DNA of 64,000 nucleotides from positions 27,734,742-27,798,741 of the forward strand of contig OV277870.1 of assembly GCA_922989275.2 (NCBI GenBank), in the 5' to 3' direction. A model generated the notes under the pieces. It made no database searches. It was not told the origin of the DNA and saw nothing but the letters and a program-made list of their open reading frames with translations. Position 1 is the first letter of the stretch; each line of letters opens with the position of its first letter. The stretch comes from Gari tellinella. Its lineage: Eukaryota > Mollusca > Bivalvia > Cardiida > Psammobiidae. Below are positions 1,165 through 60,787 of the stretch, piece by piece. A program made the position numbers and the translations under genes.

Positions 1165-1290
1165 CCTTCATATTTAACTCCTTCATCGCCGAATTCGCAT
1201 AACGTCGACTTTGTAAACCGCTTGGATCCTGATAAGACGCCGAGTCACCCGTCATACTGCCTTACATCTAACTTTGAAATGATCTTGCAG
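1165..1290. repeat. Decayed TTAA-class (D/E-like) MITE fragment
   Basis: Contains TTAACTCCTTCATCGCC near 1173, then a half copy of the shared core (TTGGATCCTGATAAGACGCCG, decayed). After that comes the family-typical ACTGCCTTA...AACTTTG inner segment. The right half of the palindrome is gone. The small open frame over this region is a by-product of the repeat. Confidence 0.45.
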
Positions 1291-1692
1291 ACAATTCATT
1301 TGGAACAGAGAGCAGTATGGCGGTGAATGGGGTCAACGATTAGTTTGGCGCCGATAGGGTTAAGAATTTTCAGGCTCTTCTCTCAATTGGACGTTTAATA
1401 TAATGGCTGTAATGTAGCGTAACATAGAGCAATTTTTCATAGAGTCCTATAGACACCGTCAATTTACGCTTTCATTGCCATTATTGAGTTGACGAAATGA
1501 AGTTCATACTGAGATTCTGCTTTATTAGAATTGTGACTAACTTTATGACATTTAGTACTTAAACCATACTTGCCTACCATTGTACAAGTAGGAAGGAAAC
1601 TAAGTTGATAAAGTCAGCAGGAAATATAACATGTTTGACATTTACGTTTCAGATAAAATGCAATAACCAATTTATGCCTGGATGATATTGCT

Positions 1693-1878
1693 TTAACTCA
1701 TTTGCGCCCAGTGGATTCTTCCATGTTTTATATTGGATTAGTCCATTTTTATCAAAGGGATGCCTGGTCAAAATTTTCATTTCCTTTTGTTTTATATTGA
1801 AATTCCATAATGCGGCGTCTGATCAGTCTACACTGTTTGCCTATGTCCCAAATATGGGATCGTGGGCACAAATTGCTT
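1693..1878 (+). mobile_element. Family A MITE, TTAA-class, core half deleted
   Basis: Begins TTAACTCATTTGCGCCCA and ends in the family tail ATGGGATCGTGGGCACAAATTG. Family A has ends reading CCCATTTGYGCCCA next to TTAA, which suggests a piggyBac-like transposase as mover (family knowledge; no enzyme is encoded here). The left half of the central palindrome is deleted, leaving TAATGCGGCGTCTGATCAG and the right arm. Compare the fuller copies at 4002 and 47355. Confidence 0.75.
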
Positions 1879-2167
1879 GAAACTTTATTTTGTACTTGCT
1901 AGGTGTTCTAAAGATATTTCAGTATTTGTCTATACAACATAACATTCATATGAAATTACAAACAGAGCAGAACATAATAAAATGTCGGGAAATGCGGCGT
2001 TTCATCATGGTCTAGATATACACTGTTTGTCAATTCATTTAAGTAGACACTAGGTTTAAATCGGATAACTAAGTCGCTTCATGGGAAAACCTTATTGCAG
2101 TACAAATGACTGATCTACTGTTCTTTGCTAGTTATTTGAAGGAAAGTGTACTACCTGATCAGAGATG

Positions 2168-2345
2168 AACAGTAAAACCTCTCTATTACGAACACTAAAT
2201 AGAAAGCTTATTGAGTGTTAAAATGGCGGATGACATTGTAAAGTAATGTGACAGTAAAACAGAAATTGTTTTACTGTCATCTTGCTTTAAGTTGTCGTTT
2301 GTCATAAACATATAAATCTTAACGTAATATTGTGGTCGTATCAGA
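2168..2345. mobile_element. Family F MITE (TA-class), copy 1, right end decayed
   Basis: The left end reads CAGTAAAACCTCTCTATTACG. The middle is a hairpin around 2240-2295 (TGACAGTAAAACAGAAA facing TTTTACTGTCATCTTGCTTTAAG). The right end keeps only GTGGTCGTA of the expected mirror image. Family F has TA target duplications, shown best at 61412-61587. Confidence 0.65.
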
Positions 2346-2825
2346 AAAATGACACATAGATTGGCCCTGATCTTTACTTTTATTGCAATAAATAATTCCG
2401 GTTTACTCCTGACGCAGCTGAAATAAAAGCTTTGACAAAGAAAGAAGGCTTTGATATACAGCCTTTGCTATGACAGTGTAGGTGTTAGTTAACGATAAAC
2501 AAAGAAGGGAATCGAATTAAGGATCCAATTTCAGCCGTGATTACCGCGAGGTGTATTGTTATATTACGGTATTCCATTTACGATTTTTCCGTAGGTTATT
2601 CTGTTCCTTATTCTAAGTATAAGTATATAGAATGATCTTTACATAAATGCCATACAGAGGAAGCTGCAGGGCTGTTGTTGATTAAAATGGAAAGAGCATA
2701 ATCAATCTTCGGCACGCTGTGGGAGAGATATATAGGATCTGTCATGAGTCGATGTTTAACACAAGCTGATCTCAAACGAGTCTAGAATTGAAATGTTATT
2801 AAGCGAGCCTTGGCGAGCTTACATG

Positions 2826-3197
2826 TACAGTGCTCCCTCTCTACAACGACATCCAGTGGAAGACACAGATTGTGTGTGTTGTTCGGCGAGAGTCGTTATA
2901 GAGAGGGAAAATGAAGACTTGGCTTATATTTGCAAACAGCTTGAATCCAGATCAGACGCCGCGTAACGCGGCGTCTGATCTGGATTCAAGCTGTTTGTCA
3001 CTCATAATTATATTTATTCTATCATAATGTCAACTGATATGTAATTTTAAGAAAAACAGCAGACGACAATTTTAAGCAGACGACATTGCAGCAGTTAAAG
3101 CGTTAGACATAATTGTCCGGTTTTGGGAACTGAGACAAGGGTCGTTGTAAAGAGGGAGTCGTTATTGGGAGGGCCGTTGTAGAGAGTGAACGCTGTA
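2826..3197 (-). mobile_element. Family C MITE, TA-flanked
   Basis: Ends are TA-CAGTGCTCCCTC and GAGTGAACGCTG-TA. Inside are ACAACGAC-type subterminal motifs and an intact palindromic core at about 2932-2999 with GCGTAACGC at its centre. Reversed relative to the copies at 11260 and 44465. Length 372 including the TAs. It has no coding capacity and must be moved in trans. Confidence 0.85.
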
Positions 3198-3467
3198 GTA
3201 ACTTTTCTATTCTAGACGAGTTTGAGATCAACTTGTCTTAAACATCGACGAGTGACAGATTCTTTTTCTCTCATTACCAACGATTTATGCTTTTTATAAA
3301 GCAATATGCTTTTTTTTTTGGAACCCCGTTGACGTCAAAACGCCGTTATGAATAGTGACGTTGTAGTGACACCATCAACCATGTCTTACATATTTTGGAG
3401 ATGAGGATATTCGTGATCGTTGTTCGCTGTAGAAAACAAGGGTAGTTATGTGAGAAAATGATATTAT

Positions 3468-3530: not shown

Positions 3531-3559
3531 TCGGCTTGTATTTCTTATACGATAAACTA

Positions 3560-4001: not shown

Positions 4002-4235
4002 TTAATCCATTTGCGCCAAAGTGGATTCCTCCATGTTTATAATTTTATATTGGATAAGTCCATTATTATCAAAGGGATGCCTGGTTAAAGTTTTCATTTT
4101 TATTTTGTCTTATATTGAAATTCCTATCAGCAAACAGTGTAGACTCTGACCGGACACCGCATAATGCGGCGTCTGATCAGCTTCTACACTGTTTGCCTAT
4201 GTCCCATATAAGGGATCGTGGGCACAAGTGGGTTG
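4002..4235 (+). mobile_element. Family A MITE, nearly full length
   Basis: Runs from TTAATCCATTTGCGCC to GGATCGTGGGCACAAGTGGG. The core at about 4133-4198 is complete: GCAAACAGTGTAGACTCTGA, then ACGCCGCATAATGCGGCGT, then the mirror arm. The family A core carries GTAGACTCTG arms where families B-E carry TTGGATCC-type arms, but the GATCAGACGCCG heart is the same. Confidence 0.85.
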
Positions 4236-4832: not shown

Positions 4833-5082
4833 TACAGTGGAGAATGTGTTATTCTTTCTCAATAAACGCGTTTACGCTAAAACTATTATTTACAATGCAA
4901 ACAGTTTGGAGCCAGATCAGACGCCGGGTAACCCGGCGTCTGATCAGGCTCCAACCTGTTTGCCACCAAGAGAAACATGAATTATCAGAATTGTCCAAAA
5001 GTTGTACTTTTCTACGTTTTAGTACTTTGCGTTTGCGTACGTTTGCGTTTAAACGGGAAATAATAACAGATTCTCCACTGTA
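4833..5082 (+). mobile_element. Family B MITE, TA-flanked, copy 1
   Basis: TA-CAGTGGAGAATGTGTTATTC at the left, CAGATTCTCCACTG-TA at the right. The inner arms differ: CAATAAACGCGTTTACGC on one side, GCGTTTGCGTACGTTTGCG on the other. The core at about 4896-4965 has GGGTAACCC at its centre. The TA target duplication is demonstrated by an empty site for the copy at 20988. The palindrome makes open frames on both strands with near-identical peptides; these are not genes. Confidence 0.9.
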
Positions 5083-5334
5083 TATCTAATACAGTAGCTT
5101 ATAAAGTTTTTTTAAATATTTTTTAACATGTAGCATAGATGACAATATACCGTACACACATTTACAGAGGGACACATAATGAGGATCTATAGTCACTGCC
5201 CCACAAACATTCTTCTTTACAGCTTTTGATTTATTCATCTTCTTGGTAAGAATAGTAGTTATACTGATTCCTCTCTTGGATATGTTCCGTAAAATTTAGT
5301 TTCTATATACCAGCGCGTGTGTATATGTTATTGG

Positions 5335-5830
5335 GATTAAGTGTAATCAGGGATTATGCGTAATCCCTGAACATTTTAGGAATTAGGCGTAATCACTTGG
5401 CGTTTTAGGGAGTTGATGAAATGTCCCTTTTTCATCAAATTAATTAGATTTGTACTATCATGACATTTCTAATGATTTTAAACATCATGCTTAAACACTC
5501 ATGGTCTAGTGAATGTTCATACAGAGTTTCTCGCCCAAGTAAATAAGACTAAGTGAACAGTGTGCATTTAAATCAAGATAATTAAAATCCATGATATTTG
5601 TCCTGTTGATAAGGTTAACAATATTTTATAGCGTGGTACTTGCCTATGAACTGAATGAACTGAACGAGGTAAGATTCATTACAAAAGTAACTGCCAACGT
5701 TTTATAAAAACAACCAAAAGCTTACAAAGTACGCCTTTTCCCTGGGAGATTAAGGGTGTTCGTGAAAGCCCTTGTTTTTCAGGGATTTCACGTATACCCT
5801 GATTAAAATTAATCCCTGTAACATATATGC
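5335..5830. repeat. Cluster of GGGATTA/TAATCCC motifs
   Basis: At 5335-5450 and again at 5745-5825, short inverted motifs of the type AGGGATTA-TGCG-TAATCCCT recur. No terminal repeats are seen. It could be the remnant of a larger dispersed element; its identity is unknown. Confidence 0.35.
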
Positions 5831-6324: not shown

Positions 6325-6480
6325 TAAACCCTCACTATAACAACTACGGCATTGTGTTAATTATCAAATGTTCAAGACAGGTGACTGCTTATAGCAAGTT
6401 GACAATAAAACAGAAAACCTTATGTTTTACTGTTGCAGTCCTTTAAGCTGTCACCTGACGTTCACAAAAATCAATTAGGC
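6325..6480. mobile_element. Family F MITE relic (copy 2)
   Basis: Hairpin GACAATAAAACAGAAAACC facing TGTTTTACTGTTGCAG, followed by CTTTAAGCTGTCACCTG. This is the F core with decayed ends. The left end is represented by CTCACTATAACAACTACGG. Confidence 0.5.
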
Positions 6481-7359
6481 TTCGTGTTAGAGTTTGTAAT
6501 AAATAGGTTTTACAAAATAGAAATAATAATTATACTAAATAGCATACTGTCTATATAAAAACACTACAGTAATGGCATAAGAAGATATGATACATTGTTC
6601 CGTGACTTTTGATCAAGGTGTTAATTGTATGACATTTGTTATGTCATGTCTCCAATTTTAAATTCATATTTGGCTTCTTTCATAACATCTTAAAGCGGTC
6701 GGCACCATTGCATGGCAAAGGTTAGTATTCCTTTTCAAGAAATCAAACTTACATGTCAAGCATCAGCATTCGTGGCACCTCCGCCCTGAACAAAACAGAG
6801 TACCTATCAACAAGCTGACACTCGGAAAGCTTTTATATACATTACACTTTGAGAGAGGTTGACTAGAATTGTCTTGGGTGTTCAATATTGTTTAGCACTT
6901 CAGAAATAAAACCTTACGGTAAAGTCTTACACAAATATACTCACTACTCATGTGTAAACTAATCGATAGCATATTAACCACTTACTTCATATCCTATTTT
7001 TGAAAGCAGCTGCTCTTTTAAAGTATGTTGAAATCCTGAATGCAAAGTCTGCTTTATTTCAGTATACTTTAAGCTACTTCAACTGTGAAGTAATTACTCG
7101 AATGAGTAAATGAAATATATAGCAACGGGTTAAAGTAGGAGGGATAATCTTTAGTATGAGCAGATGTTCATGCAGATGTTCAAACCAAATATTTCTACAA
7201 ACGCTAATTGTAGTCCAACATATTAATTTACTTGCAAATTTCGGTCATTTAAGCGTTTTAGAGTATGAGTTGAACTGTTTTAAGCATCCTTTGGAGAAAA
7301 AATATCAGTAAAGTTGGTACTGTGGGTTATTCTCGCTAAAAGTAGAAATTAACTGGTCA
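6481..7359. other. Gene-free stretch
   Basis: AT-rich, with no repeat ends, RNA gene or convincing open frame recognised. Confidence 0.5.
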
Positions 7360-8236: not shown

Positions 8237-8486
8237 TACAGTGGAGAATTTGTTATTCTTTCCCAATAAAGGCGTTTACGCTAAAACTATTATTTACAGT
8301 GCAAACAGTTTGGAGCCAGATCAGACGCCGGGTAACCCGGCGTCTGATCAGGCTCCAAACTGTTTGCCAACAAGATAAACAAGAATTATCAGAATTGTCC
8401 AAAAGTTGTTCTTTTCTACGTTTTAGTGCTTTGCGTTTGCGTACGTTTGCGTTTAAACGGGAAAGAATAACAGATTCTCCACTGTA
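8237..8486 (+). mobile_element. Family B MITE, TA-flanked, copy 2
   Basis: TA-CAGTGGAGAATTTGTTATTC to CAGATTCTCCACTG-TA, 250 bp including both TAs. The core at about 8301-8368 is intact. Nearly the same as the copies at 4833 and 34722, so probably among the younger insertions. Confidence 0.9.
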
Positions 8487-11259: not shown

Positions 11260-11606
11260 TACAGTGCTCTCTCCCTACAACGGCCTCCCAACAACGACTC
11301 CCTCCTTATAACGACTATTTACGCGGTTTCCTGAACACAACAATTATGGCATGCGCTTTTACTGCTGCAATATTGTCTGCATTAAACTGTCATTTGCCTT
11401 TTTAAAAGTTATATATAAGTGAATAAATATAATGACGAGTGACAAACAGCTTGAATCCAGATCAGACGCGCGGCGTCTGATTTGGATTCAAGCTTTTCGC
11501 AAATGTAAACCAAGTCTTAATTTCACTCCCTGTAACGACTCCCTCCGAAAAACACACACACGCATTGTCTCCCATCTGTTGGCGTTGTAGAGATTGGATC
11601 ACTGTA
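11260..11606 (+). mobile_element. Family C MITE, TA-flanked
   Basis: TA-CAGTGCTCTCTCCCTACAAC at the left and GGATCACTG-TA at the right. ACAACG motifs are spaced at roughly 16-18 bp near the left end (CTACAACGG, CAACAACGAC, TTATAACGAC). The core at about 11448-11500 has lost its central spacer, leaving ACGCGCGGCGT. Confidence 0.85.
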
Positions 11607-17490: not shown

Positions 17491-17547
17491 TTTACACAGT
17501 TATGTGTTTTACAGACATGGAAAGACACTATAAAATACCAAATAAAG

Positions 17548-17748
17548 AAGAACTTCTCTATATCGTCCACTTATAAAACGAAGGTTACTACTTATATATA
17601 AGACGCTTACAGCGTAAAGCAAGGAGACAGTAAAACAGAAAGCTCCTAAAGGAGATTTCTGTTTAACTGTCACATTGCTTTAAGCAGAAACATGCCATAA
17701 ACGCCTAATAGTTCACATAATAAAGTTGTCGTAATAGAGAGGAAATGT
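17548..17748. mobile_element. Family F MITE, copy 3
   Basis: Left TCTCTATATCGTCCACTTA and right AGTTGTCGTAATAGAGAGG are decayed F ends. The centre at about 17621-17692 is a strong hairpin: AAAGCAAGGAGACAGTAAAA on one side and TTTAACTGTCACATTGCTTT on the other, with a TCCTAAAGGA tip. Confidence 0.7.
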
Positions 17749-18606: not shown

Positions 18607-18624
18607 CCGTAAGTAATATTTTTC

Positions 18625-19869: not shown

Positions 19870-20082
19870 TTAACACTTTGCCTGCTGGTCGCGACTTAAT
19901 TGAATTTTGCAAACAGTTAAGATCCAGATCAGACGCCGCGTAACGCGGTGTCTGATCTGGATCCAAACTGTTTGACACTCGTCTTTAGGTTTCGTTACTT
20001 AAACAAGGTATATATCTATATTTAACAAACTTTGAAGACGACAATATAGAAGCAGACGACATCACCGCTGGATAAGGGTTAA
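19870..20082 (+). mobile_element. Family E MITE, TTAA target duplication proven
   Basis: TTAA (19870-19873), CACTTTGCCTGCTGGTCGCGA at the left, CTGGATAAGGG at the right, TTAA (20079-20082). Copy 2 of the segment has a single TTAA at 21637-21640 and no element, so the insertion duplicated TTAA. CCCTTTGCCTGCC-like ends are typical of piggyBac-like elements (family knowledge). The shared core is at about 19908-19972. Confidence 0.9.
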
Positions 20083-20700: not shown

Positions 20701-22023
20701 TTTATTTCATGCTCGGTTAAGTCGAATATACACATAATTCAAAGTTAAAACGTGGTTTAGCCATGTTTTAAGTTTGAAATACAGGAATATTCGGCAAAAC
20801 CGACTCGAGATATTTAAATTCGAAGGTAGCATATAGTCGTTGTGTTATTTGTTGTGTTCAAGATAGGGGGCAGCTTAAAGCAGGAATATGATAATGCAGA
20901 CGTGTCCTATGTCCCTGCATTTAGCGGTCACATCGGCTACACAATCGACCGCATCTTCCGTTTGTGTTCGTCTTAATCAGCTTTGGCTACAGTGGAGAAT
21001 CTGTTATTCTTTCCCGTTTAAACGCAAACGTACGCAAACGCAAAGCACTAAAACGTAGAAAAGAACAACTTTTTGACAATTCTGATAGTTTATGCTTATC
21101 TTAGTGGCAAACAGTTTAGAGCCTGATCAGACGCCGGGTTACCCGGCGTCTGATCTGGCTCCAAACTGTTTGCACTGCAAATAATAGTTTTAGCGTAAAC
21201 GCGTTTGTTGGGAAAGAATAACAGATTATCCACTGTATAAGTACTCGCCCAGTTATCGATGGCTATGAGAACCCCTTTAACTGAATTGACCGTAAGTACT
21301 TCCTAACCTTATCAATAGTTCCTTAACGTATGTAATATGAAAATTATGCAAATGCCAGTCTGTGTGGCGGTGATCTGGTCTTCCGATTAAACAACTAGTG
21401 TAGCAATTTCTGTCGGTAAATGATAAGCCTAGTCTGGGCCATTGTTTATGTGTATTAAATTAGAACTACTCCTGGTAAAGTACTTCCGAATTTTCATTCT
21501 CAAAAGGGATTGCTATTAGAATGTCTGACAGTTTTGAAATTCACAAGTCACCGAAATTCCATGTCTCTGAACAGGATCCAGTCTACATGAATTTTGCATT
21601 TCAACGATGTTTTTTTCAACTTAAATGACACTTATATTAACATTAGCAATGCAGAAAGCCATTAAAGCATCAGCTATTTTTACGATTGAAGGGTTAGTGT
21701 CAAGTCAATAATTACGCACAATGGTGTTAAATAAAAAAAGTCTAAATAATTTCAGTTACAATTAGCTGGTTGGAAAAGGTCACTGCACGTTATAGATATT
21801 GTTAATCTAATATTCTGGAGATAAAATCAAACCTTTAGATCCAGCTGGAGAGCTGAAGTTGAAAAGGCAACAATAGTTTATTTAAAATTGATATTTAAAA
21901 CTATTATTGCTTTACTGTTGAAATTGTAGTTTATATCCTGTTACGGAAATAATGAAATGTAAAATATATATTTACTATGACAAAATCTGTTTGACTATTC
22001 TCTGTTCATGGGCATTTATACAC
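20701..22023 (+). repeat. Tandem segment, copy 2
   Basis: Second direct copy, starting TATTTCATGCTCGG immediately after copy 1 ends. Interrupted only by the family B element at 20988-21237. The first ~285 bp differ from copy 1 at about a dozen positions, while the last ~250 bp look clearly more diverged. Confidence 0.85.
20988..21237 (-). mobile_element. Family B MITE with demonstrated TA duplication
   Basis: GGC-TA-[CAGTGGAG...CACTG]-TA-TAAG here, against GGC-TA-TAAG in copy 1. This shows precise insertion at TA with duplication of the dinucleotide, as for Tc1/mariner-class transposases. The core at about 21109-21172 is intact. Reversed relative to the copy at 4833. Confidence 0.95.
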
Positions 22024-22187: not shown

Positions 22188-22407
22188 TACAGTAAAGCTA
22201 ACGTTTTCTTTCCTAATAACCCCAATTGCGCTTAAACTATTTTTTCGTTGCAAACATTTTGAGCCAGATCAGACGCCTGATCAGGCTAAAACATGTTTGT
22301 CACTGAAATTGAAACTGATAGTCGGAATTGCTAAAATGTTGTTATTTTCTATATTTTACTGCAATGCGTTTGCGTTTGAACGAAATAATAACGATTTCTC
22401 CACTGTT
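22188..22407 (+). mobile_element. Family B MITE, old copy
   Basis: TA-CAGTAAAGCTAACGTTTTC at the left, AACGATTTCTCCACTG at the right, with the usual inner arms. The core (22250-22300) has lost its middle: AGACGCC runs into TGATCAGGC. It is more diverged than other B copies. The 145-codon open frame here is a by-product. Confidence 0.75.
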
Positions 22408-24734: not shown

Positions 24735-24933
24735 TTAACCCATTTGTGCCCACGACCCAATATATGGGACATAGGCAAACAGTGTAGACTCTGATCAGAC
24801 GCCACTGTTTGCTGATAGAAATTTTAATTTAAAACAAAATGAAAATGAAAATTTGGACCAGGCTTCCCTTTGATAAAAATAGACTAATCCAAGATACAAA
24901 CATGGAAAAAATCACTGGGCGTAAATGGGCTAA
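24735..24933 (-). mobile_element. Family A MITE, core nearly deleted
   Basis: TTAACCCATTTGTGCCCACGA at the left; CTGGGCGTAAATGGGCTAA at the right. The core is reduced to AACAGTGTAGACTCTGATC, AGACGCC, then ACTGTTTGC: the whole right half of the palindrome has been removed. Confidence 0.85.
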
Positions 24934-34300: not shown

Positions 34301-34513
34301 ACCCGTTTCATAATACTTCGTACGACAAAAAAGGTCGTAAGTCAAAACATGATTTGTCTAATCCTGTCTTGTGACATTTCTTTGGAATCGCATTTTAAGA
34401 CGATTCCAAAATGATGTCACAAGATATGAACAGATGGGGGAATACATAATAAAAGAGACGTTTATAACCTGACTTACGACAACATATGTCGTACCAAGTT
34501 TTATGAAACGGGC
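34301..34513. mobile_element. MITE with CCCGTTTCAT ends and nested hairpin
   Basis: ACCCGTTTCATAATACTTCG, TACGACA at the left; TGTCGTACCAAGTTTTATG, AAACGGG at the right. A second inverted pair sits inside: TCTTGTGACATTTCTTTGGAA facing TTCCAAAATGATGTCACAAGA. Target duplication not resolved. No other copy in the window. Confidence 0.75.
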
Positions 34514-34721
34514 CCCAGGGTATGTATTGTTTTCGTAAATGATTTATCTAGCATATGTCTTCTCTCTTAAATTTTGATGTGAAGGGCACTGAAGAGGTCA
34601 CATACCTCCTAATTGTAATAGGGGAATGCATTGGTTTGATATTATCCTATAAACACTTAAATAAATAGGTGTGGCCTATGTAACATATAAATTACCTTAT
34701 GAATAAAAGATCAGACTATTC

Positions 34722-34970
34722 TACAGTGGAGAATCTGTTATTCTTTCCCAATAAACGCGTTTACGCTAAAACTATTATTTGCCGTGCAAACAGTTTGAAG
34801 CCAGATCAGACGCCGGGAACCCGGCGTCTGATCAGGTTCCAAACTGTTTGCCACCAAGACAAACAAGAATTATCAGAATTGTCCAAAAGTTGTTCTTTTC
34901 TACGTTTTAGTGTTTTGCATTTGCGTACGTTTGCGTTCAAACGGGAAAGAATAACAGATTCTCCACTGTA
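34722..34970 (+). mobile_element. Family B MITE, TA-flanked
   Basis: TA-CAGTGGAGAATCTGTTATTC to CAGATTCTCCACTG-TA, close to the family consensus. The core at about 34785-34850 lacks two bases of the central spacer (CCGGGAACCCGG). Confidence 0.9.
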
Positions 34971-34999
34971 CATACAATAAATCAACTTTATGTTTTATA

Positions 35000-35140
35000 T
35001 ACAGGGCTCAAGATAAGGGGGTATTTCAAAACTAAAACCTTTATTTCTGGATAAAACCCTTTGGTGTCATCACTCATTAGAATCGTCTCGCATAGACGAT
35101 TCTAATGAGTAGTGATACCATATGATTTTGTGCTGAAATA
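35000..35140. mobile_element. Repeat K, copy 1 (AAGGGGG ends, hairpin)
   Basis: AGGGCTCAAGATAAGGGGGTA at the left, then an exact hairpin CATTAGAATCGTCTCG facing its mirror (ACGATTCTAATGAG). Shares CGACGATTCTAATGAGTAGTGA-type sequence and the AAATAAAG/TTTCAAAA blocks with 48785-48958. The right end is unclear. Confidence 0.5.
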
Positions 35141-35207
35141 AGTGAGAATATGTTGGATTTGTTCAATTTACTCGCTCTTATCTGGATCCCTGTATATACA
35201 TGTAAAA

Positions 35208-36077: not shown

Positions 36078-36476
36078 TACGGTCCAGACTGTTTAATTTT
36101 CATAAATAAGAGGTGGAAATCAAGAGAAAAAAAATTCGATTCCGAATACGTCTCATATCACGAGACGATACTGGATTTGTTCCATATTTATATATTAGAT
36201 TAGTCATTTTGATCCAAGGGATACATGGTCAAAATTTTCATTTTTATTTTGTTTTATATTGAAATTCCTATCAGCAAACAGCATAGACTCTGACCAGACG
36301 CCGCACATTGCGGCGTCTGGTCAGTGTCTACACTGTTTGCCTATGTCTCAAATATGGGATCGTGGGCACAAATTGGTTAATATTATTCGGTCCAGACTGC
36401 TTAATTTTCATATATAAGAGGTGGAAATCCGAGTAAAATCTTAATTCGATTCCAAATACATCTCATAGAACGGGAC
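36078..36476 (+). repeat. 308-bp-spaced direct duplication flanking a family A MITE
   Basis: GGTCCAGACTG ... AAGAGGTGGAAATC (from 36081) recurs from 36389, about 95 bp long on each side. The family A element lies exactly between, so the tandem unit is flank plus A element, with one A copy at the junction. Confidence 0.75.
36171..36380 (+). mobile_element. Family A MITE
   Basis: The body from TATTAGATTAGTCATTTTGAT to GGGCACAAATTGGTTAA is recognisable. The core at about 36275-36340 is complete (CGCCGCACATTGCGGCG). The left TTAA end has decayed. Confidence 0.8.
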
Positions 36477-36731: not shown

Positions 36732-37070
36732 TACAGCGCTCCCTCTCTACAACGACACCCATTGTGAGACAAACATTGTGTGCGTTGTTCAGAGGGAGTC
36801 GTTACAGGGAGGGAAATTGGTTTACATCTGCAAACAGCTTGAATCCAGTTATCGTCGTCTGATCTGGATTTAAGTTGTTTGTCACCCGTCATTATATTTA
36901 TTCCATCAAAATGTAATTTTTAGAAAAAACCAGCATACGACAATTTGAAGCAGACGATCTTGCAGCAGTTAAAGTGTTAAACATTCTGCCTTTTTTGGGC
37001 ACAGCCGTTAGGGTCGTTGTAAGGAGGGAGTCGTTATTGGGAGGGCCGTTGTAGGGAGGTAACACTGTTA
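36732..37070 (-). mobile_element. Family C MITE, TA-flanked
   Basis: TA-CAGCGCTCCCTCTCTACAAC at the left, GTAGGGAGGTAACACTGT-TA at the right. The core at about 36835-36885 has lost its AGACGCCG left half (GAATCCAGTTATCGTCGTCTG). Reversed like the copy at 2826. Confidence 0.85.
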
Positions 37071-38786: not shown

Positions 38787-41126
38787 TAGTAGAGGGCATT
38801 TACAGATTTTGGGGAACTAATTTGTACAGAAATGATTTTTGTGTTTTCATATGCTATGACATGAACCGAATAACAGAAAAAAAGTCCCAAGAAATCACAC
38901 GATGCGAAATATGATTTTTGGGGTAAAATGACTAAAACAATAAACGAAAATGCGAATTTTTGGAATTTCGCCACTATGACCATGGTTTTGAACAAAAAAG
39001 CTCCAACTTTTCAGATTATGCACATATTCCATTACACTCCAGGCTAGTACCACACCAGTTTAAGAAAAATTTTTTGGGGTAAAATTGTAAAAAATAAGTT
39101 AAAAAACACACATTTTTGGAATTTCGATACTGTGTCCTTAACTATGAAAAAAAATGTTCAAGTTTGAAATAATAGTTGCACACACCTTCTAAATCGAGTA
39201 AGTTTTTAGGTAAAGATAAATATTTGTTTTAAAAGAATGTGTTTTTATGGTAAAAATGTATTTAAAAAAAAAAACAAAAAAAACCCATGAATTTTTGAAG
39301 TTTATTTATTATGGCTTTAATATGAATATAAATGCTCCAACTCAATACGTTACACAAAATGTTCTATTAAATAAAGATAAAAAAGATCATTACCAGATAG
39401 AAAATGAAATATTATTTAAAAACAAATATATTTTTGGGTAAAACCTTAGAGAATTCCTAAAAATCAGGATTTTAGGAGTTTTTTTTCCAGTGGCTTTGAA
39501 TATGAATCATTTAGCTCTAAATCTTCATGCAAGATACATATTCCATTTAAATGTTATAAATTACTTGTAAGAATACCTGCATGCTTGAATAAAAGTTTAT
39601 TTTGTCAGTGAAAATGAATTTAGTTAAATGAACACACGTTAAGATCTTGTAGTAGAGGGCATTTAAAAAATATTGGGGGAAAAAATGCACAGAAATGATT
39701 TTGTGTTTTCATATGCTCCAATATGTACCGAATAACAAAAAAAAAATCAAGGAAAATCAAACAATGCGAAATCCGATTTTTTGGGGTAAAATGATTGAAT
39801 TGATAAACAAAAATGATAATATTTGGAAATTCCAGACTGTGATCCTGGGTGTTAACATAAAGGCTCCAAATCTACAAATTAGACTGAATGTTACATGCAC
39901 TGTCAAATAGTACTAATTGGGATACATAAACCTTTCAAAAAAATGGTTCTTTTTGGGTGAAAATCATGAAAATTTTAAACAAAAACCAAATTTTTGGAGA
40001 TTTTAGTAGAGATTACCTGATGTCAAACACGAAAATAAGCACATAAATTGTTTATATGGTAGAGCATGTACCAAATAATAGAAGCAAAATCTAGGAAAAT
40101 CAATCTATACGAAATATGTTTGTTTGAGGCAAAATTGTTGAAATAGTAAATGAAAACGCTAATTTTAGGGATTTCAGTACTGTGTCGTTGGTTATCAATA
40201 TAAAAGCTCCAAATTTACAGGCTAGATACTTATACATCTCTATTGTGAAAAGTATTATTAAGGATAAATAAAATTTTGAATTATGAAGTTTGGGATAAAA
40301 ATGTTGATATAATAAATGAAAACGCAAATTTTTGGAATTTCCCTACTGTGAACGTGGATATCAATATAAATGCACCAAATAAGCAGGTTAGACAAAAAAT
40401 CATTTTAACTGTGTAATGGTACTAGTAAGGAAAAATAAAACTTTCAAAAAACTGATTTTTGGGTTTAAATTGTCAAAATATTAAACCAAAATCACCAATT
40501 TTGGGGATTTTTGTAGACGCTCATTATCCCTGCCATCAAAATCAAAATTGATTTATGCGTTATTATATGCTTTAATATGTACAAATTAATAGAAAAATAA
40601 TCTAGGAAAATCGAACAATACCAAATATGTTTTTTGGGTAAATAAAATGTAAATGGGCTTTATTTAGGATTTTACTTCTGTGGTGGTGGCTATTAAAACG
40701 AAAGCTCCAAATCTACAGGTTAAACGAATACTCAATTGCACTGTGGAATGGTACTTATAAAGATGAATAAAACTGTCAAAAAACTGATTTATGCAGTTAA
40801 GTTGTTATAATAATTAAACAAAAAACACCAATTTTCGAGATTTTAGCAGAGATCTCCTGGTCTGAAAACTCCAAATAAAGCCTTAAGCAAATAAAGGGAA
40901 AAGCGTTGAGAGTTGATTTATGTGTTTGAGTATGTTTCAACATGAATTAAATAACAGCAAAATAAAGGGAAATCCAACAAAGCCAAATACATATATGTCA
41001 TTTCGAAGTAAACTGGTTAAAAAATTAGTTTCAATGTGATTTTTTGAAATTTCCACAACATGGCTTTAGATATAAATGTAAAAGCTTCAAATGTACAGGT
41101 AAGACACAATATACTTTGTACTGTAG
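38787..41126 (+). repeat. Left arm of the foldback-like element
   Basis: Sub-repeat landmarks CAGAAATGATTTTTGTG / GATTTATGYGTT recur near 38827, 39690, 40549 and 40913. The terminal TAGTAGAGGGCATTTA is repeated internally at 39651, showing that arm ends were duplicated inside the arm. Confidence 0.75.
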
Positions 41127-42289: not shown

Positions 42290-44302
42290 ATTTTTTACCC
42301 CCCCCCCCAAAAAAAAAAAAAAATCAGATTTTTAAACCTTAGTTCATCCTAATAAGTACAAGGCTACAGTACACAGTAATATGTACCTTACCTGTAAATT
42401 TGTAGCTTCTATATTCTCGTCTAAGTCCATGTGTGGAATTTCCAAAAACTCGCATTTACATTAATTGTTTTAATCAGTTTACCCCAAAATTTATATTTGG
42501 CTTTGTTGGATTTTCCTAGATTATTTTACAAACAAGAATTGATGATTTTGGTTTAATATTTTGACAATTTTACCCCGAAAAACAGTTTTTTGACACCTTC
42601 ATTTATCCTAACAAGGACCATTCTGAAGTAGACATGAGTTTTTGTCTAGCCCGGATATTTGGAGTTTTTATATTGATATCCATGGTCACAGAAGGGAAAT
42701 TCCAAAAAATAGCTTTTTCAGTTATTATTTCAACCATTTTATCCAAAATCATATTTCGGATTCTTTGATTTCCCTACATTATTTGTCTGTTATTTGGTAC
42801 ACATTGAAACATAATTGCTGATAAATCAATTCTGTGCATATTTTCCTTTATTTTGATTTCAATGTCAAAATCTGTCAACAATCCCAAAAATATGAAATTT
42901 TGGTTTAATAATTTTACCATTTTACCCCAATAATCTTTTGTTTTAAGTTGTGTTCATCCTACCTAGAGCCATTCCATGGTAGACATGAATATGTGAGCAT
43001 ACTGTAGATTTGGACCTTTTATATTGATATCCTCGATCACAGAAGGGAAATCCCAAAAATTAGCGATTTAAGTTATTATTTCAACCATTTTACCCAAAAT
43101 AATATTTTGCATAGTTTGATTTTCATAGACTTTTTGTCTGTTATTTGGTACATATTTAAGCAAATAATAACATATAAATCAACTCTGTGCACCATTTCCT
43201 TTATTTCCTTTTTGATATCAGGGTCTGTTTGAAATCTTCAACATTTGTGATTTTGGTTTAATATTTTGACAATTTCACCCCAAAAATCATTTTTTTGAAC
43301 ATTTTATTTATCTTAACAAGAACCATTCCAAAGCTGACATGAACATTTGTCTAGCCTGTAGATTTCGAGCTTTTATATCGATATTCTCGATCACAGCAGG
43401 GAAATCCCCAAAATTAGCGATTTAAGTTATTATTTCAACCATTTTACCCAAAAAACATAGTTTGCATTGTTTGATTTTCATAGACTTTTTGTCTATCATT
43501 TGGAACATATTTAAGCAAATAATAACATATAAATCAATTCTGTGTACCATTTCCTTTATTTCCTTTTTGATGTCAGGGTCTGTTTGAAATTCTCAAAATT
43601 TGGGATTTTGGTTCAATATTTTGACAATTTCACCCCAAAAATCAGTTTTTTGAAAATTTTATTTATCTTAACAAGTACTATTCCACAGCTGACATGAACA
43701 TTTGTCTAGCCTGTAGATTTGGAGCTTTTATATCGATATCCTTGATCACAGCAGGGAAATCCCCAATATTAGCGATTTCAGTTATTATTTCAACCATTTT
43801 ACCAAAAAATCATAGTTTTCATTATTAAATTTTCCTAGACTTTTTGTCAGTTATTTGGAACATATTTAAGCAAATTATAACATATAAATCAACTTTGTGC
43901 ACCATTTCCTTTATTTGATTTTAGATGTCACGGTCTGTTTGAATTCTTCAAAATTTGTGATTTTGGTTTAATATTTTGACAATTTCACCCCAAAAATTAG
44001 TTTTTTTAAAATGTTACATATCTTAACAAGTACCATTCCATAGTTTACATGAATATTTGTCTAGCCTGTAAATTTCGAGCTTTTATATTGATTTGTACGA
44101 TCGCAGTTTGGAAATCCCAAAAAATCGTGCTTTTACATATTATTTCAGCCATTTTACCCCAAAAATCATATTTCGCATCGTGTGATTTCTTGGGACTTTT
44201 TTTCTGTTATTCGGTTCATGTCGTAGCATATGAGGGCACAAAAATCATTTTGTACAAATTAGTTCCTTTATTTGTGTTTTTGACGCTAAATGCCCTCTAC
44301 TA
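42290..44302 (-). repeat. Right arm, ~355-bp sub-repeats
   Basis: ACCATTTCCTTTATTT begins at 43191, 43546 and 43901, giving a 355-bp period, with an older unit upstream. Each unit carries ATTTTACCCCAAAAATCA-type blocks, mirroring the left arm. The inner boundary is a C-run followed by an A-run (42299-42322). Confidence 0.8.
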
Positions 44303-44464: not shown

Positions 44465-44825
44465 TACAGCGCTCCCTCTCTACAACGGCCCTCCCAACAA
44501 CGACTCCCTCCTTACAACGACTCTTGCCGCTGTCCCCAAAACAAGACAATTATATGCCTAATACTTTCGCTTCTGCAATATCGTCTGCTTAAAACTGTCG
44601 TCTGCTGTTTTCTCAAAGTTACATATTCGACATTTTGACAGAAAAAACTTAATGGCGAGTGACAAACAGCTTAAATACAGATCAGACGGCGCGTTACGCG
44701 TCGTCTGATCTGGATTCAAGCTGTTTGCAATGTAAGCAAATTTCCCTCTCTATAACGACTCCCTCCGAACAACGCACACAATCTTTGTCTCCCACTGGAT
44801 ATCGTTGTAGAGAGGGAGCGCTGTA
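44465..44825 (+). mobile_element. Family C MITE, TA-flanked, near consensus
   Basis: TA-CAGCGCTCCCTCTCTACAAC at the left, AGAGAGGGAGCGCTG-TA at the right, 361 bp including the TAs. The core at about 44664-44730 is intact (GGCGCGTTACGCGTC centre). The best model copy for family C. Confidence 0.9.
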
Positions 44826-47354: not shown

Positions 47355-47578
47355 TTAACTCATTTGCGCCCAGTGGAGTCTTCCATGTTTTATATTGGAT
47401 TAGTCCATTTTTTATCAAAGGGATGTCTGTTAAAAATGTTGTTTTCATTTTGTTTAATAATGGAATTCAAATCAGCAAATAATGTAGACACTGATCAGAC
47501 GCCGCATAATGCGGCGTCTGATCAGAGTCTACACTGTTTTCCGATGTCCCACATATGGGATCGTGGGCACAAATATGG
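47355..47578 (+). mobile_element. Family A MITE, near consensus
   Basis: TTAACTCATTTGCGCCCAGTG at the left, ATGGGATCGTGGGCACAAAT at the right. The core at about 47484-47545 is perfect at its heart (GACGCCGCATAATGCGGCGTC). The 139-codon frame over it is a by-product. Confidence 0.85.
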
Positions 47579-55078: not shown

Positions 55079-55970
55079 CCGGCAGTCCGATTTGTCGCGA
55101 ACCACTCAACGGAAGAAAACAAACCACAGAGCAGAAGTAACGACGTAATTCCGATGACGTCAAATCATCAAATCAATGACGTCATTGTACGATTTGATAT
55201 AAACTTGGGGCTCAACACGGGATAAATAATGTACTTTTGCTTTCAATTGTCGAATACGTTCCTTGAAAAAGTGGCTTAAGGGGGTAGGTGCACCTTGGTA
55301 AAGTAAATACCGAATTCTTCAAACTTTGCATACTGATAGTAAAATTAGTTTCTATGACAAAACTGGTGAAAAAAGTGGGGGTACCGGACCTTTCTTTTTA
55401 ACAATTTGAGATTTTTCAAGGCTACCCCCCTAAAATTGAAGCTTCATAAAAACTCCTACTTTTTTGTACTACGGTTTTTCAATCTTTATTTAAACAATCT
55501 ATTTGTACCAAAAGTATCCTAATTTATATTACCATAGTAAGAATAAACCCTGAAAAAAATGTTTTTTCAAGATCCAAAATAAAAATATTTGATTTTACCA
55601 GAAAGGAGTAAAATTTACCCCACCCACTTTTTTATAATGGGAGAATAAGGCACTGTGAAAATTGCCCTACAAATTGTAGCAAACTAAATACCAAATTTTT
55701 TATTTGTTGTATTTAGCCTTGCAAACAAAAAGTTTTAGTGAAATAGCAAATAAAACACAGGGTCCCGTACCTTTTAAAAAAGATATAGATCATTTTATCT
55801 AAAAAATCCATTTTTTCTCATTTTTTCAATTTTTTGTGTACTTTTAGCAAAAATATTTTTTTTCCAAAAAATTTCATTTTATCTATTGAGTTATCTATAA
55901 TTTATACTAAAAACTGTACTATCATGAAAATTTCATGCTTATATTCTGAGAAATTGAAATGAAATTGGAT

Positions 55971-56783
55971 GTAACAAAATACAACCTACCTATGAAAACA
56001 GTGTATGCTGTTAACTACGAATAGGACATAAAACTTAAAAAGTCCCTTCCGGAACGAAAATCCAATTTTTTCCCGGGAAAATAGTGTTTTGTTACTGTAT
56101 GCATTCACCAAAAATGAGTTCTTACCATTTTTTTGAAAACGAGTTCGTAAATTTTTTCGGAAATTTCATAATGCTCAAAAAGACAGGCCGACATCCTTAA
56201 AAGCATACATAAATGGAATGACTGTATTTTTTCAATCGGATGTAACAAAATACAACCTACCTATGAAAACAGTGTATGCTGTTAACTACGAATAGGACAT
56301 AAAACTTAAAAAGTCCCTTCCGGAACGAAAATCCAATTTTTTCCCGGGAAAATAGTGTTTTGTTATTGTATGCATTCACCAAAAATGAGTTCTTACCATT
56401 TTTTTGAAAACGAGTTCGTAAATTTTTTCGGAAATTTCATAATGCTCAAAAAGACAGGCCGACATCCTTAAAAGCATACATAAATGGAATGACTGTATTT
56501 TTTCAATCGGATGTAACAAAATACAACCTACCTATGAAAACAGTGTATGCTGTTAACTACGAATAGGACATACAACTTAAAAAGTCCCTTCCGGAACGAA
56601 AATCCAATTTTTTCCCGGGAAAATAGTGTTTTGTTACTGTATGCATTCACCAAAAATGAGTTCTTACCATTTTTTTGAAAACGAGTTCGTAAATTTTTTC
56701 GGAAATTTCATAATGCTCAAAAAGACAGGCCGACATCCTTAAAAGCATACATAAATGGAATGACTGTATTTTTTCAGTGTCAG
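55971..56783 (+). repeat. 271-bp tandem repeat, three units
   Basis: GTAACAAAATACAACCTACC begins at 55971, 56242 and 56513. The three units differ at only a few positions (e.g. GTTACTG/GTTATTG, CATAAAAC/CATACAAC). Near-identity implies recent amplification or homogenisation. Collapse or expansion in assembly is also possible. Confidence 0.9.
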
Positions 56784-56784
56784 A

Positions 56785-58036: not shown

Positions 58037-58353
58037 TACTGTGCTCCCTCCCAACAACGGCCCTCTCAACAACGACTCCCTCCTTATAACGACACTTGCC
58101 ACTGTTTCCCAAACCGGACAATTGTGCCTAACGATTTTCATGGCTGCAATACCGTCTGCTTAAGTTTGTTGTCTACTGTTTTTTCTCAAAGTTACATAAT
58201 GGACATTTTGACATAAAAAACAACTAAATAACGAGTGACAAACAGCTTGAATATGAATTCAAACAGTTTTCAAATGTAAGCCAATTGCCCTCCCGAACAA
58301 CGTACATATTGTTTGTCTCCCATTGGATGTCGTTGTAGAGAGGGAACGCTGTA
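58037..58353 (+). mobile_element. Family C MITE, core mostly lost
   Basis: TACTGTGCTCCCTCCCAACAAC at the left, GAGAGGGAACGCTG-TA at the right. At about 58243-58275 the core is collapsed to CAGCTTGAATATGAATTCAAAC, AGTTTTC: outer arms without the GACGCCG heart. Confidence 0.8.
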
Positions 58354-58728
58354 GAATTTAACAGAAGCTCAATCATACAGCGACATCAGCTAATCACAAA
58401 TTGAAAAAAACACTTTTTATACACGGTTTTAGATACAAATTGGCAATTTGGTAGACTTTTCGACAATCCGCAAAATAGGTTATTAGACAACGACATTATT
58501 TAAGTTGAATTTTACTAATGTCAGTAACAGAGCCAGGCAAACTCTGTCAAGATGCATTGTTCATTGATAACAAATTAAGATGTTGCTAAAAATAAATAGT
58601 TAACCTTTCACCAGTGTGTAATCCGCAACTGCAATAATTCATACGATTTAAAAGTGTGCGCTTTTGTTTATGTATATCTTAATCTTGTATATCTAGATCA
58701 CTATTGGTGTCAAAATCATGTTAAATAG

Positions 58729-59028
58729 CTTCTTTATAACAGTTGCCGTATCAGGCTGTATATATGGGGCTATGCGACTGATATTGGTTTTATTAGAGTT
58801 GCTGCTGATTTGGATGTTAATCGCCTGACTGATTCGGTTGACGATTTGAAAAGAAAGGCAAGTCAGTTATGTCAGTTCATGCAGTTTTGCATAAAACAAT
58901 GTAAATTCAATAAATCTAAAGAGTACGTTTCCAAACATAAATTAGTCCGATGCGGGTTTCACAAGCGTGACGTCTATTCAAATAAATCAGACAAAGAAGC
59001 CTTAAGAGAATGTGACCTAGATACATAA
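58729..59028 (+). CDS. Uncharacterised 99-codon open frame
   Basis: Open from a TAG at 58726-58728 to a TAA at 59026-59028. It has no ATG near its start (a TTG at 58810), so if real it would be an exon. The composition is protein-like: hydrophilic, Lys-rich, with the cysteines CQFMQFCIKQC clustered, then CGFHKRD. No family recognised. It overlaps no recognised repeat. Chance is a serious alternative. Confidence 0.2.
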   Translation, partial: LLYNSCRIRLYIWGYATDIGFIRVAADLDVNRLTDSVDDLKRKASQLCQFMQFCIKQCKFNKSKEYVSKHKLVRCGFHKRDVYSNKSDKEALRECDLDT

Positions 59029-59494
59029 TACGTTTTCAGCTGATACAATTTATGTGGTCCGGTTTCAATTACAGATAAGCATATTAGGGCAATAAATCAG
59101 GATTGTATTCAGTATGAATTGCCTTATTTATATTGCCAGTAACTCCTCTAGATAAAATACAGAACAGAAGTAAGTAAACAACACACGCGATTAAATACAA
59201 CAGAGGGAACAAATAAAATTAAACTTTTGATTATCAATTCATTTAAAGTAACGAATATCGCATTTACTGTCAAACTTTATCACCGGTTCTATTTTTAAAT
59301 ATACATATTAAGCGTCTGACAAATACTTTTCAAGCAAGGCGTCAGGTATCTTTACTGAAAATATCGATCAGATAAACCTTTGAAACCTAATCCGCGATTA
59401 ATCTGAATTCTATCCGTCTCAAAAGACGATTTAATCGGCAATAGTACCGAAATAATAAGGATTGTTATATGTGCTTTCAATTGTATTCATTTTG

Positions 59495-59640
59495 AGTGTA
59501 ATCAGTGATGATGATGCCTTTGGTTTTACGGCAATGCGATATAACATAGATCATATAGCGCCCATGAAATTATCAGGGGTGCTGAGATGTGATGCTGATG
59601 ATTGCGGAAGTCATTCGTTGCGATGATATTTGTTTAAGTT
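59495..59640 (-). mobile_element. SINE-like repeat H, reversed fragment
   Basis: On the minus strand: CGCAACGAATGACTTCCGC, CATCTCAGCACCCCTGATAA, GGGCGCTATATGATC, GCATTGCCGTAAAACC, in the same block order as 47695-47930. Confidence 0.55.
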
Positions 59641-59874
59641 CTGCTGCTTATCAAAGACAATAAAAGGCAGTGGTTAACTGTAAACGACACCATTACTTCA
59701 TTGCAAAACATACTGTTTACAAAATGTTCTATTACCGCTTGAAAAGACGCAATTATTCACATTGTTTTTAACATTGGTGAGTTTTACAATCAAGGCCGCA
59801 GCACGTATCGTGGTTATACCTCATTCAACCATTTACTCCATAATGTTTATCTTGTTTTAAAGACATATGTCTAC

Positions 59875-59965
59875 TTAAAACATATTGAAGGTAAGGCAGG
59901 CTGACTGTGTTGTACAGCGACTTCTCTACATTCAGCCTGCTTTTAACTACTATCTGATAGGATTT
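59875..59965. repeat. Family G-type hairpin remnant
   Basis: AAGGCAGGCTGACTGTG faces CATTCAGCCTGCTTTTAACTA, then CTATCTGATAG. Same CAGGCTGA / TCAGCCTG stem as G; no TTAA ends. Confidence 0.4.
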
Positions 59966-60425
59966 AGTTATCGTTTGTAAGGGGAAGGGGCACATTCATG
60001 TCTGTATCAGTTTAAACTATTCCTTTAGTGGAGGAATACATTAAGTATGTAGCATATGTGTTTATATGATAATTGATTAAATGAATCAATAAATAAACGA
60101 AATCGACTTCCGATCTTACAGTGTTAACAAAACAACAGTTTTAAACCCAGACAGTATTGTTTCGATGAGGATCAGTTCAACATGTTATACTTTTAATGTT
60201 TCAGTGATAATTATTAAATAGGGCCTTTTCTCAAACAGTCTATTCTTGGAAAACAGTTTAATTTACTGGTCAAACACAATTTTATATGACATTTGCTTAT
60301 GGATATAACTGTTTGTCACTTCTGTTTACAATTCCCCGGTCTGAATGCCTTACACCTAGATTAAAGAAATAAAAGCATTGACGCATGTTAATTCGCCATT
60401 GGAAAGTGAAGGTGATAATTTGTTA

Positions 60426-60787
60426 TACAGCGTTCCCTGCTTACAACGACCTTCTGTACAACGATTCTCTCCTTACAACGAGGCTTGCCACAGTTCCCTA
60501 AGCATACAATAATGTCTAAAACTTTTACTACTGCAATATCGTCTGCTTAGAATTATCGTCAGCTTGTTTTTCTCAACGATACATATAAACGGACATTTTG
60601 ATGAATAAATATAATTACGAGTGACAATCAGCTTGAATCCAGATCAGACGTCGGGTCACGCGGCATCTGATCTGGATTCAAGGTGTTTGCAAATGTAAGC
60701 CAATGTCCCTCCCTATAACGACCCCTCCAATCAACGAATATAATCCTTGTCTCCCTTTGATAGTCGTTACAGAGAGGGAGCGCTGTA
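60426..60787 (+). mobile_element. Family C MITE, TA-flanked
   Basis: TA-CAGCGTTCCCTGCTTACAAC at the left, AGAGAGGGAGCGCTG-TA at the right. The core at about 60628-60691 is nearly intact (GACGTCGGGTCACGCGGCATC). 362 bp. Confidence 0.9.

Follow-up and report, generated by a model that had tools for sequence, protein, structure and literature searches.

A palindromic core common to TTAA- and TA-flanked miniature transposons in the genome of the bivalve Gari tellinella

Introduction

Can transposons that differ in their ends and in their target sites have the same sequence in their interior? This question is raised by a stretch of 64,000 nucleotides of the genome of the bivalve Gari tellinella (GenBank assembly GCA_922989275.2, contig OV277870.1, positions 27734742-27798741), which we call the window. 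A first-pass annotation, made from the letters of the window alone, described one palindrome inside five families of short transposons, of which three (A, D, and E) are flanked by TTAA and two (B and C) by TA. It proposed that this core had been exchanged between transposon superfamilies, had moved on its own, or was selected for a common function. Here, we follow the palindrome through the window, through further loci of the same genome, and through the whole assembly (80 contigs, 1,597,604,326 bases scanned). The elements carrying it are miniature inverted-repeat transposable elements (MITEs). We favor the reading, with a probability of roughly 55%, that the palindrome is an internal DNA-hairpin module, which transposon superfamilies would have acquired from one another by capture and which selection would maintain in the lineages that amplify.

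The palindrome is found across the genome

The six palindromes of the first-pass annotation (two in A and one each in B, C, D, and E) are all in place, with deviations of a few bases. The window has 60 sites within two mismatches of GATCAGACGCCG, an enrichment far above chance, since 100 shuffles gave a mean of 1.14 sites and a maximum of 4. Genome-wide, the exact 12-mers of the half-site occur 547,477 times (273,870 + 273,607), against 3 times (1 + 2) for the reversed control, and there are 172,728 exact inner palindromes, with none for the control. Each of contigs C1-C10 was also sampled twice, with 10 kb read at the 10-Mb and at the 30-Mb mark. These 20 stretches contain 170 sites within two mismatches, 72 of which are exact, with at least one site in 17 of the 20 stretches, and the density of half-sites in them is consistent with the genome-wide rate. 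Hence, the palindrome is a genome-wide feature and not a local cluster.

Two origins outside the animal were considered and rejected. Two forms of the inner palindrome gave no match in viral contigs, and the half of a second palindrome class, P2 (see below), gave no match. The half-core gave three matches, in contigs of 49-69% GC content that lack the paired CAAACAG arms, which we read as chance. The sole prokaryotic match (L045 2664-2692) resembles a terminator hairpin in a stretch of 61% GC and was read as a coincidence.

The core lies in elements with TTAA or TA ends

To describe the families we surveyed 288 kb (the window and loci L001-L028), in which 148 cores were scored, 112 of them with both halves. 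Clustering of their flanks gave 19 groups of arms with at least two members and left 85 arms single. The core measures ~65 bp and is internal to short elements with TTAA ends, TA ends or, in one copy, GGGGCCC ends. The survey thus extends the families A to E by E2, F, G, and the GGGGCCC-ended copy, and the shared core, or class P1, by five further palindrome classes, P2 to P6.

After the flanking TTAA, family A starts with CCCATTTGTGCCCACGATCCC, the D group with CCCTTTCACTCTCAATGACG, E2 with CCCTTAGCCTGCCACTC, F with CTCTTTCCTCCCTG, and G with CCCATTTYATGCGGG. After the flanking TA, family B starts with CAGTGGAGAATCTG and family C with CAGCGCTCCCTCTC. The single P1-core copy with GGGGCCCGTTTTAC ends is at L028 2169-2415. 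Families A, D, E, E2, F, and G have the TTAA target duplication and the CCC/CTC-type termini of piggyBac/TTAA MITEs, and B and C have the TA target duplication and the CAGT/CAGC-type inverted termini of Tc1/mariner or pogo MITEs. From their sequences, D, E, and E2 seem to belong to a single TTAA group whose members have altered termini. The consensus lengths of the P1 families range from 209 to 361 bp, and the elements are short, present in high copy number, noncoding, and provided with terminal inverted repeats and target duplications, as MITEs are. Five stop-to-stop frames of at least 130 amino acids were found in the window, and the three that were scanned gave no Pfam match.

When the end rows are read by eye, TA is present at both ends in 27 of 35 copies of B and 8 of 17 copies of C. 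TTAA is present at both ends in 3/6 copies of A, 3/9 of D, 0/7 of D2 (left end in 6/7), 3/4 of E2, 6/8 of F, and 2/3 of G. The ends of the remaining copies are mutated, truncated, or placed differently. These rows bear out that the core occurs in TTAA-flanked as well as in TA-flanked elements. The copies in the window are the following.

4833-5082, minus strand: B MITE, TA at both ends; core near 4897-4963
8237-8486, minus strand: B MITE, TA-flanked; core 8301-8368; DNA hairpin of -40.3 kcal/mol, z -17
20988-21237, plus strand: B MITE, TA-flanked; core near 21106-21173
22206-22406, minus strand: old B copy, tip of the palindrome deleted
30003-30252, minus strand: B MITE, TA-flanked
33712-33946, plus strand: B MITE, TA-flanked
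34722-34970, minus strand: B MITE, TA-flanked
2826-3197, plus strand: C MITE, TA-flanked; core 2932-2999 with a mismatch-free stem; -42.1 kcal/mol, z -15
11260-11606, minus strand: C MITE, small deletion at the center of the palindrome
32947-33294, minus strand: C MITE, ends eroded
36732-37068, plus strand: C MITE, palindrome partly deleted
44465-44825, minus strand: C MITE, TA-flanked; core 44664-44730; right inner arm of C homologous to D2/E2
58037-58353, minus strand: C MITE, ~33 bp of the palindrome deleted
60426-60787, minus strand: C MITE, TA-flanked
4002-4234, minus strand: A MITE of TTAA type, one end mutated; core 4133-4198
24735-24933, plus strand: A MITE, one half of the palindrome largely deleted
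36174-36381 (approximate bounds), minus strand: A MITE, core near 36274-36340
47355-47574, minus strand: A MITE, one end mutated; core 47484-47545
31625-31840, plus strand: D element of the first-pass annotation, TTAA-flanked; core 31736-31800
30438-30683, minus strand: D-group MITE, TTAA at both ends
19870-20082, plus strand: E element of the first-pass annotation, TTAA-flanked; core 19908-19972
31873-32082, plus strand: second E copy, with both TTAA ends mutated, to TTAC on the left and to GGGTTGG on the right; core near 31911-31979

Cores follow arm families but not end types

We compared 144 pairs of arms with the cores removed, using 300 shuffles per pair; the scores are uncorrected for the number of pairs, and the rows for the left arm of the short D set were excluded. 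The right arm of C aligns to the right arm of D2 with a score of 46 (null maximum 24) and to that of E2 with a score of 38 (null maximum 27). Weaker similarities link it to G (27, null maximum 23) and to a truncated D arm (30, null maximum 24). The right arms of D2, E2, G, and C have parts in common, including GCAGACGACA. In addition, the right arm of C has a stretch of 17 bases, 14 of which match the D-group terminus GGCAGTGAAAGGG followed by TTAA, a level reached in 3 of 2000 shuffles; it is probably a relic of a D-type TTAA end. Since its right arm is homologous to D2 and E2 and seems to retain this relic, C looks like a D-type TTAA MITE that was captured inside TA-type ends and lost its left TTAA end. 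A nested analogue is visible in locus L010, where a P2 element with TTAA (5115-5357) lies inside TA-type ends (4984-5388).

The arms of A and B gave no convincing alignment to D2 or E2. Hence, the proposal that the inner arms differ between families stands for A and B, but the alignment of C to D2 and E2 rules out wholly unrelated arms for C. A similarity between the arms A_R and GGG_L (36, null maximum 32) was discounted, both being AT-rich.

In B, the core differs from that of D2 by one two-sided and one one-sided change among 29 positions, though the arms cannot be aligned. Judging from these comparisons, a transfer involving B would have been one of the core or little more. Some older copies of B have beside the core the sequence GACACTCAG, which resembles, by eye, GACACTCG in D.

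To which family does a core resemble most? Among 196 cores in total, 96 copies could be labelled by their arms alone, and the nearest other core has the same arm label in 87 of them. As cores follow arm families in this way, their transfer looks old and rare. The mean distances between cores are 0.202 for B-D2, 0.190 for C-E2, 0.232 for C-D2, and 0.242 for B-C. For B as for C, the closest cores are thus those of a TTAA family and not those of the other TA family, so that a single tree does not describe both the ends and the cores. These distances fit at least two old transfers with little recent exchange. The first-pass annotation had named a strict clustering of cores by family as evidence against exchange; for the recent past this is nearly what is seen, and exchange is infrequent. 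Its proposal of an exchange between superfamilies nevertheless gains support, because the B-D2 and C-E2 core distances are smaller than B-C and because a route is visible in C.

We also inspected 22 symmetrical cores in which one arm or both had remained unclustered. By eye, 16 of them have D/E-type arms, B-type arms, or TTAA-type ends next to them, and six are unclear. No core with a target duplication of its own, or with an empty site, was noticed by eye among these 22, no systematic search having been made, and the idea that the core moved on its own thus gains little.

Changes in the core are mostly matched between families and mostly one-sided within them

Seven family consensuses (G, which has a one-base indel, was left out) have in both halves the invariant pattern CAAACAG.....A..C.GAT.AGA.G.C. 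At the remaining positions, the two halves vary together. Relative to D2, the consensuses show 27 matched two-sided differences and 2 one-sided ones; over all 21 pairs of families, which are not independent, the counts are 124 and 8. We then analyzed 25 cores, hand-picked among the 112 with both halves in a way that favors symmetrical ones, and found 91.9% of 798 cells paired and about 65 unpaired. In these cores, 22 of the 33 pairs changed on both sides, with 83 cells changed two-sidedly and 13 changed one-sidedly with a G-T pair kept. None of 500 shuffles reached any of the five measures of pairing, and an independent fold found the same structure.

The pattern within families is different. 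Families A, B, C, D2, and E2 together provide 82 copies labelled by arms only. Their changes are one-sided in 307 cases, including 87 of the G-T kind, and two-sided in 39 matched and 21 unmatched cases. Family B accounts for 150, 21, and 13 of these, respectively, and in the other families the two-sided changes are near or modestly above expectation. A stricter set, in which 92 of 137 cores were grouped by their own similarity, a procedure that disfavors matched changes, gave ratios of one-sided to matched changes of 70/3 in B (35 copies), 34/1 in C (12 copies), 97/11 in D (22 copies), and 41/10 in Dp (9 copies). Its group "A", which mixes A and F cores, has 40 one-sided and 26 matched changes. 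For B and C together, the 104 one-sided and 4 matched changes are near independent decay, and they contrast with the 27 matched and 2 one-sided differences between consensuses (Fisher p = 4e-22, the sites not being strictly independent). At one stem position, 33 of 40 B cores have unlike letters, and the persistence of this mismatch argues against frequent repair. The mainly one-sided change within families suggests that inserted copies decay largely like dead DNA and that the amplifying lineages keep the hairpin. The proposal that the core is selected for a common function draws its support from this difference between matched change among families and one-sided change within them.

Some physical signs are in line with a hairpin. 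Single strands of the B core 8301-8368 and the C core 2932-2999 fold at -40.3 and -42.1 kcal/mol. Eleven element types supplied 162 copies that have both arms. Among these, deletions of at least 6 bp number 30 in 11,006 bp of cores and 38 in 27,068 bp of arms (ratio 1.94, p = 0.007), and 18 of the 30 core deletions span the center of the palindrome. Insertions are not enriched in the cores of these copies (6, vs 21 in the arms). The excess of deletions is suggestive, no more, of extrusion or slippage in vivo.

The autonomous elements read lack the core

Which elements might mobilize these MITEs, and do they carry the palindrome? We found 86 matches to the piggyBac domain genome-wide and read 12 of these loci, which include five complete elements. 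Four of them (L031, L033, L034, and L037) are near-copies that end with TTAA followed by CCCTTTCGGCGCCA, like some D-group ends (by eye); these four are possibly recently active. The element of L038 ends with TTAA followed by CCCTTAGACCGCCACTCGCG, like E2 (by eye). No partner with the termini of A, F, or G was seen in the 12 loci.

Matches to the pogo-type domain DDE_1 are numerous (at least 150 scored matches, 486 candidates). The four loci read include one complete pogo-type element (L044 111-3103), whose termini are unlike those of B or C; in none of the four did we see an autonomous element ending like B or C. In L041 and L042, pairs of B-type ends are ~200 bp apart, as in the nearby MITEs. 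Since the four loci gave no partner, B and C are assigned to Tc1/mariner-pogo by their ends alone. The view that different transposases are involved is thus backed, on the TTAA side, by piggyBac elements with D-like and E2-like termini (by eye), and on the TA side by analogy only, DDE_1 being abundant.

The P1 core is absent from the six complete autonomous elements read, and in the five piggyBac elements among them no palindrome reaches a score of 11. The MITEs and the autonomous elements read have little sequence in common beyond the outermost ~14 bp. Hence, the hairpin looks like an addition.

Other palindromes occupy the same kind of element

To assess how general the association is, we ran a motif-blind scan for palindromes with short spacers. 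It found 158 in the 288 kb, many of them of other sequence classes. The class P2 has 87,833 exact inner copies genome-wide (control 0). It occurs in TTAA elements and, as the variant P2v, in TA elements, and the halves of the two forms are similar (0/1000 shuffles). A variable pair of P2 reads C/G in 50, T/A in 39, and unmatched in 11 of 100 listed places, all on contig C1 (by eye). In the window, P2-class places are at 46363 to about 46620 (core near 46529), 17543-17742, 61417-61587, and 6327-6513. The halves of P3 and P4 are also similar (0/1000 shuffles), and these classes are found in elements with CAGGGCTCC and GGGGCCC ends; the P3/P4 element types are present in the window at 34998-35196 and 34300-34518. 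P5 (one copy) and P6 (three copies) are in TA elements. We do not claim homology between the halves of P1_D and P5 (score 19, 1/1000 shuffles).

We also searched 264 kb for elements with intact inverted ends and asked whether they contain a long palindrome (score of at least 13), with random stretches of the same length from the same loci as controls. A long palindrome was present in 15 of 18 TTAA elements and 34 of 38 TA elements (49/56), compared with 5/18 and 8/38 of the random stretches (13/56; pooled p = 4e-12). The elements include many copies of the same family, B above all, and in some of them, e.g., L010 8804-9265 and 4984-5388, it is a nested element that holds the palindrome.

Some further repeats were noticed. 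A TA-flanked element of 148 bp at L013 3792-3939 is nearly one long palindrome. In the window, further inverted repeats with short spacers and stems of 28-34 bp, assigned to none of these classes, are at 29094, 35286, and 45830. The window also has a 271-bp unit in three tandem copies, about 99% identical (55963-56776), and a diverged tandem array of a 355-bp unit repeated 4.7 times (42543-44211), which is related to 39686-40844.

A hairpin module and its alternatives

In the reading that we favor, the palindrome would be an internal DNA-hairpin module of non-autonomous cut-and-paste MITEs, whose transposase is presumably supplied by autonomous partners, and it would have passed among MITE lineages served by different transposases. 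In C, a D-type TTAA MITE would have been captured inside TA-type ends and would then have lost one TTAA end. After such an entry, the sequence other than the ends and the hairpin would mostly have drifted away, while selection on the copies still amplifying would have held the hairpin near-perfect. As for its use, the most likely one is that a hairpin formed at strand separation would raise the chance of mobilization of a very short element, whichever the transposase. It may serve as a cruciform hinge, by which two ends separated by only 200-360 bp could come together, or it may act through exposure of the element or a pause of replication at it. The independence from the type of ends, the absence from the long elements read, and the freedom of sequence under constrained pairing fit a mechanical or exposure role of this kind. 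We extend this only tentatively, and at less than even odds, to MITEs of this genome at large: their success may depend on a transposase-independent cis-acting hairpin with a mechanical role. Elements of two or more superfamilies, perhaps of three or four, would have captured it from each other (P1, P2, and P3/P4) or evolved their own (P5 and P6). In this extension the hairpin would join or expose very short ends, and it would be needed in miniature elements only and be absent from multi-kilobase autonomous ones.

Several observations weigh against the favored reading. The arms and cores co-segregate in the 87 of 96 copies mentioned above, and exchange is therefore uncommon. The two-sided changes within B amount to 34 (21 of them matched), where independent halves would give 11.3; this excess may be due to subfamilies or to some repair. 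Plain decay does not require that cores be slightly closer to their consensus than arms, as they are in the five families for which the value was used, C being excluded (agreement of core and arm, respectively: 0.957 and 0.890 in B, 0.875 and 0.816 in D2, 0.913 and 0.898 in A, 0.944 and 0.917 in F, and 0.979 and 0.973 in E2), which may reflect subfamilies in the arms. The 25 cores were picked by hand, the excess of deletions is modest and uncorrected for family, and the core is off-center in several families. One of the six autonomous elements, L044, has a single AT-rich stem of 14 bp that passes the threshold of 13 used for MITEs, and the six represent about three families, four being near-copies. 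Finally, selection is not cleanly separable from palindrome repair during the transposition cycle, and rare repair between families would likewise yield two-sided change.

Such repair, acting without selection, is the main rival. The symmetry would then arise from self-repair of the palindrome, by template switching or by mismatch repair in an extruded hairpin, and the sharing of cores from chance nesting. This would account for the nearly always two-sided changes between families, and it agrees with the 39 matched variants in the 82 arm-labelled copies, of which the 21 in B exceed independent decay. However, one-sided changes far outnumber matched ones within families, all the more so in the stricter B and C groups, and the B mismatch has been retained. 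Repair also leaves unexplained why the outer CAAACAG and the inner GAT.AGA are invariant over seven families and why palindromes of other sequence occur in the same kind of element. We regard it as improbable, albeit as a serious contender. An RNA function of the core is disfavored. A transcribed stem-loop of ~65 nt could feed small-RNA pathways, and the length of the stem falls in the range of animal precursor microRNA hairpins, but the 13 one-sided cells with a G-T pair are few beside the 83 matched two-sided ones, the loops are very short, and no Rfam family was found in the window at gathering scores. We find this scarcely credible.

The two other alternatives concern the spread of the core. 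Under one of them, a single ancient MITE lineage had its ends diverge gradually until the core alone, through constraint, was recognizable. The right-arm parts common to D2, E2, G, and C would be expected in this case, as would the graded changes among piggyBac-type termini (by eye). Yet one expects ends of the form TA followed by CAGT and TTAA followed by CCC to be cut by different transposases, so that a conversion of one into the other through small changes is unlikely, and a gradual divergence hardly leaves B with a core nearly identical to that of D2 and arms that do not align. This makes a single lineage unlikely. That same pair of cores is what one would predict if the core were a mobile hairpin, similar to bacterial repetitive extragenic palindromic (REP) sequences, inserted separately into several MITE families; the copy at L028 2169-2415, which has GGGGCCC-type ends like the P4 element, yet a P1-type core, points the same way. 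Nonetheless, core families track arm families, C carries arm sequence homologous to D2/E2 together with its core, 16 of the 22 cores with unclustered arms adjoin TTAA-type ends or arms of a known type (by eye), and neither target duplication nor empty site was noticed at any core, although without a systematic search. Independent insertion of a mobile hairpin is, in our opinion, quite unlikely. The capture of a hairpin module by MITEs of different superfamilies, followed by selection on the amplifying copies, thus remains the reading that we prefer.

Comparison with known systems

In the open-licence literature of PubMed Central (PMC), we found no description of this palindrome, nor of any palindromic core that occurs in TTAA as well as in TA elements. 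Coral CMITEs and the element MER6 are partial precedents for a shared module. The CMITE families of Acropora, in the part of the source consulted, have different terminal inverted repeats around a conserved interior of ~75 bp, with origin and role given as unknown (PMC2872659). As described there, all are flanked by TTAA and measure about 100 bp, with an estimated 1600 or so copies in A. millepora, and the left end of family VI, CCCTTTCACTGCCA, is the D-group end of this study. In contrast, B and C are TA-flanked and our elements measure 209-361 bp, in a comparison made by description. The word stem "palindrom" is absent from the CMITE text consulted (PMC2872659), whereas the module described here is a near-perfect palindrome with its 172,728 exact inner cores. 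According to the same source, it is unclear how MITEs originate and evolve, and where the common CMITE interior came from is a mystery. MER6, according to the portion of its description consulted, has the V domain of a short interspersed element (SINE) inside a mariner-derived MITE (PMC6887750). It is similar in that the conserved core of one transposon type lies inside an unrelated DNA-transposon MITE, and it differs in that donor and recipient here both resemble cut-and-paste MITEs, with a DNA palindrome as the module.

The elements also resemble more common systems. Like other piggyBac/TTAA MITEs, the TTAA families have TTAA flanks, CCC-type termini, and piggyBac elements in the same genome whose ends look similar by eye, but the palindrome is missing from the five partners read. 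Like Tc1/mariner-pogo-type MITEs, B and C have TA flanks, CAGT/CAGC termini, and a short size, the assignment being by ends alone. High-copy palindromes linked to transposition are known in bacteria as REP sequences. They are also known as the palindromic transposons of C. elegans, cited in the part of PMC3212995 consulted. Compared with both, the palindrome of this study is a short internal block between non-palindromic arms, with separate terminal repeats. Satellite repeats and pearl-type MITEs, one of which (DTC84) has a palindrome near a repeat junction, appear in the consulted part of PMC5139131 and were compared by description only.

What this genome offers is many parallel cases of different ends, and hence probably different transposases, around the same internal structure, with family-specific variants that are still paired. 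A role of the hairpin in mobilization is thereby testable with two unrelated transposases. Repeat annotation should be made with caution, as a common core can merge families with unrelated ends. SINEs with different heads and tails have conserved central domains in common, and the palindrome module would be the DNA counterpart of these domains. The presence of one hairpin inside short elements of several unrelated kinds suggests that a transposase-independent module can move between elements and may aid their multiplication.

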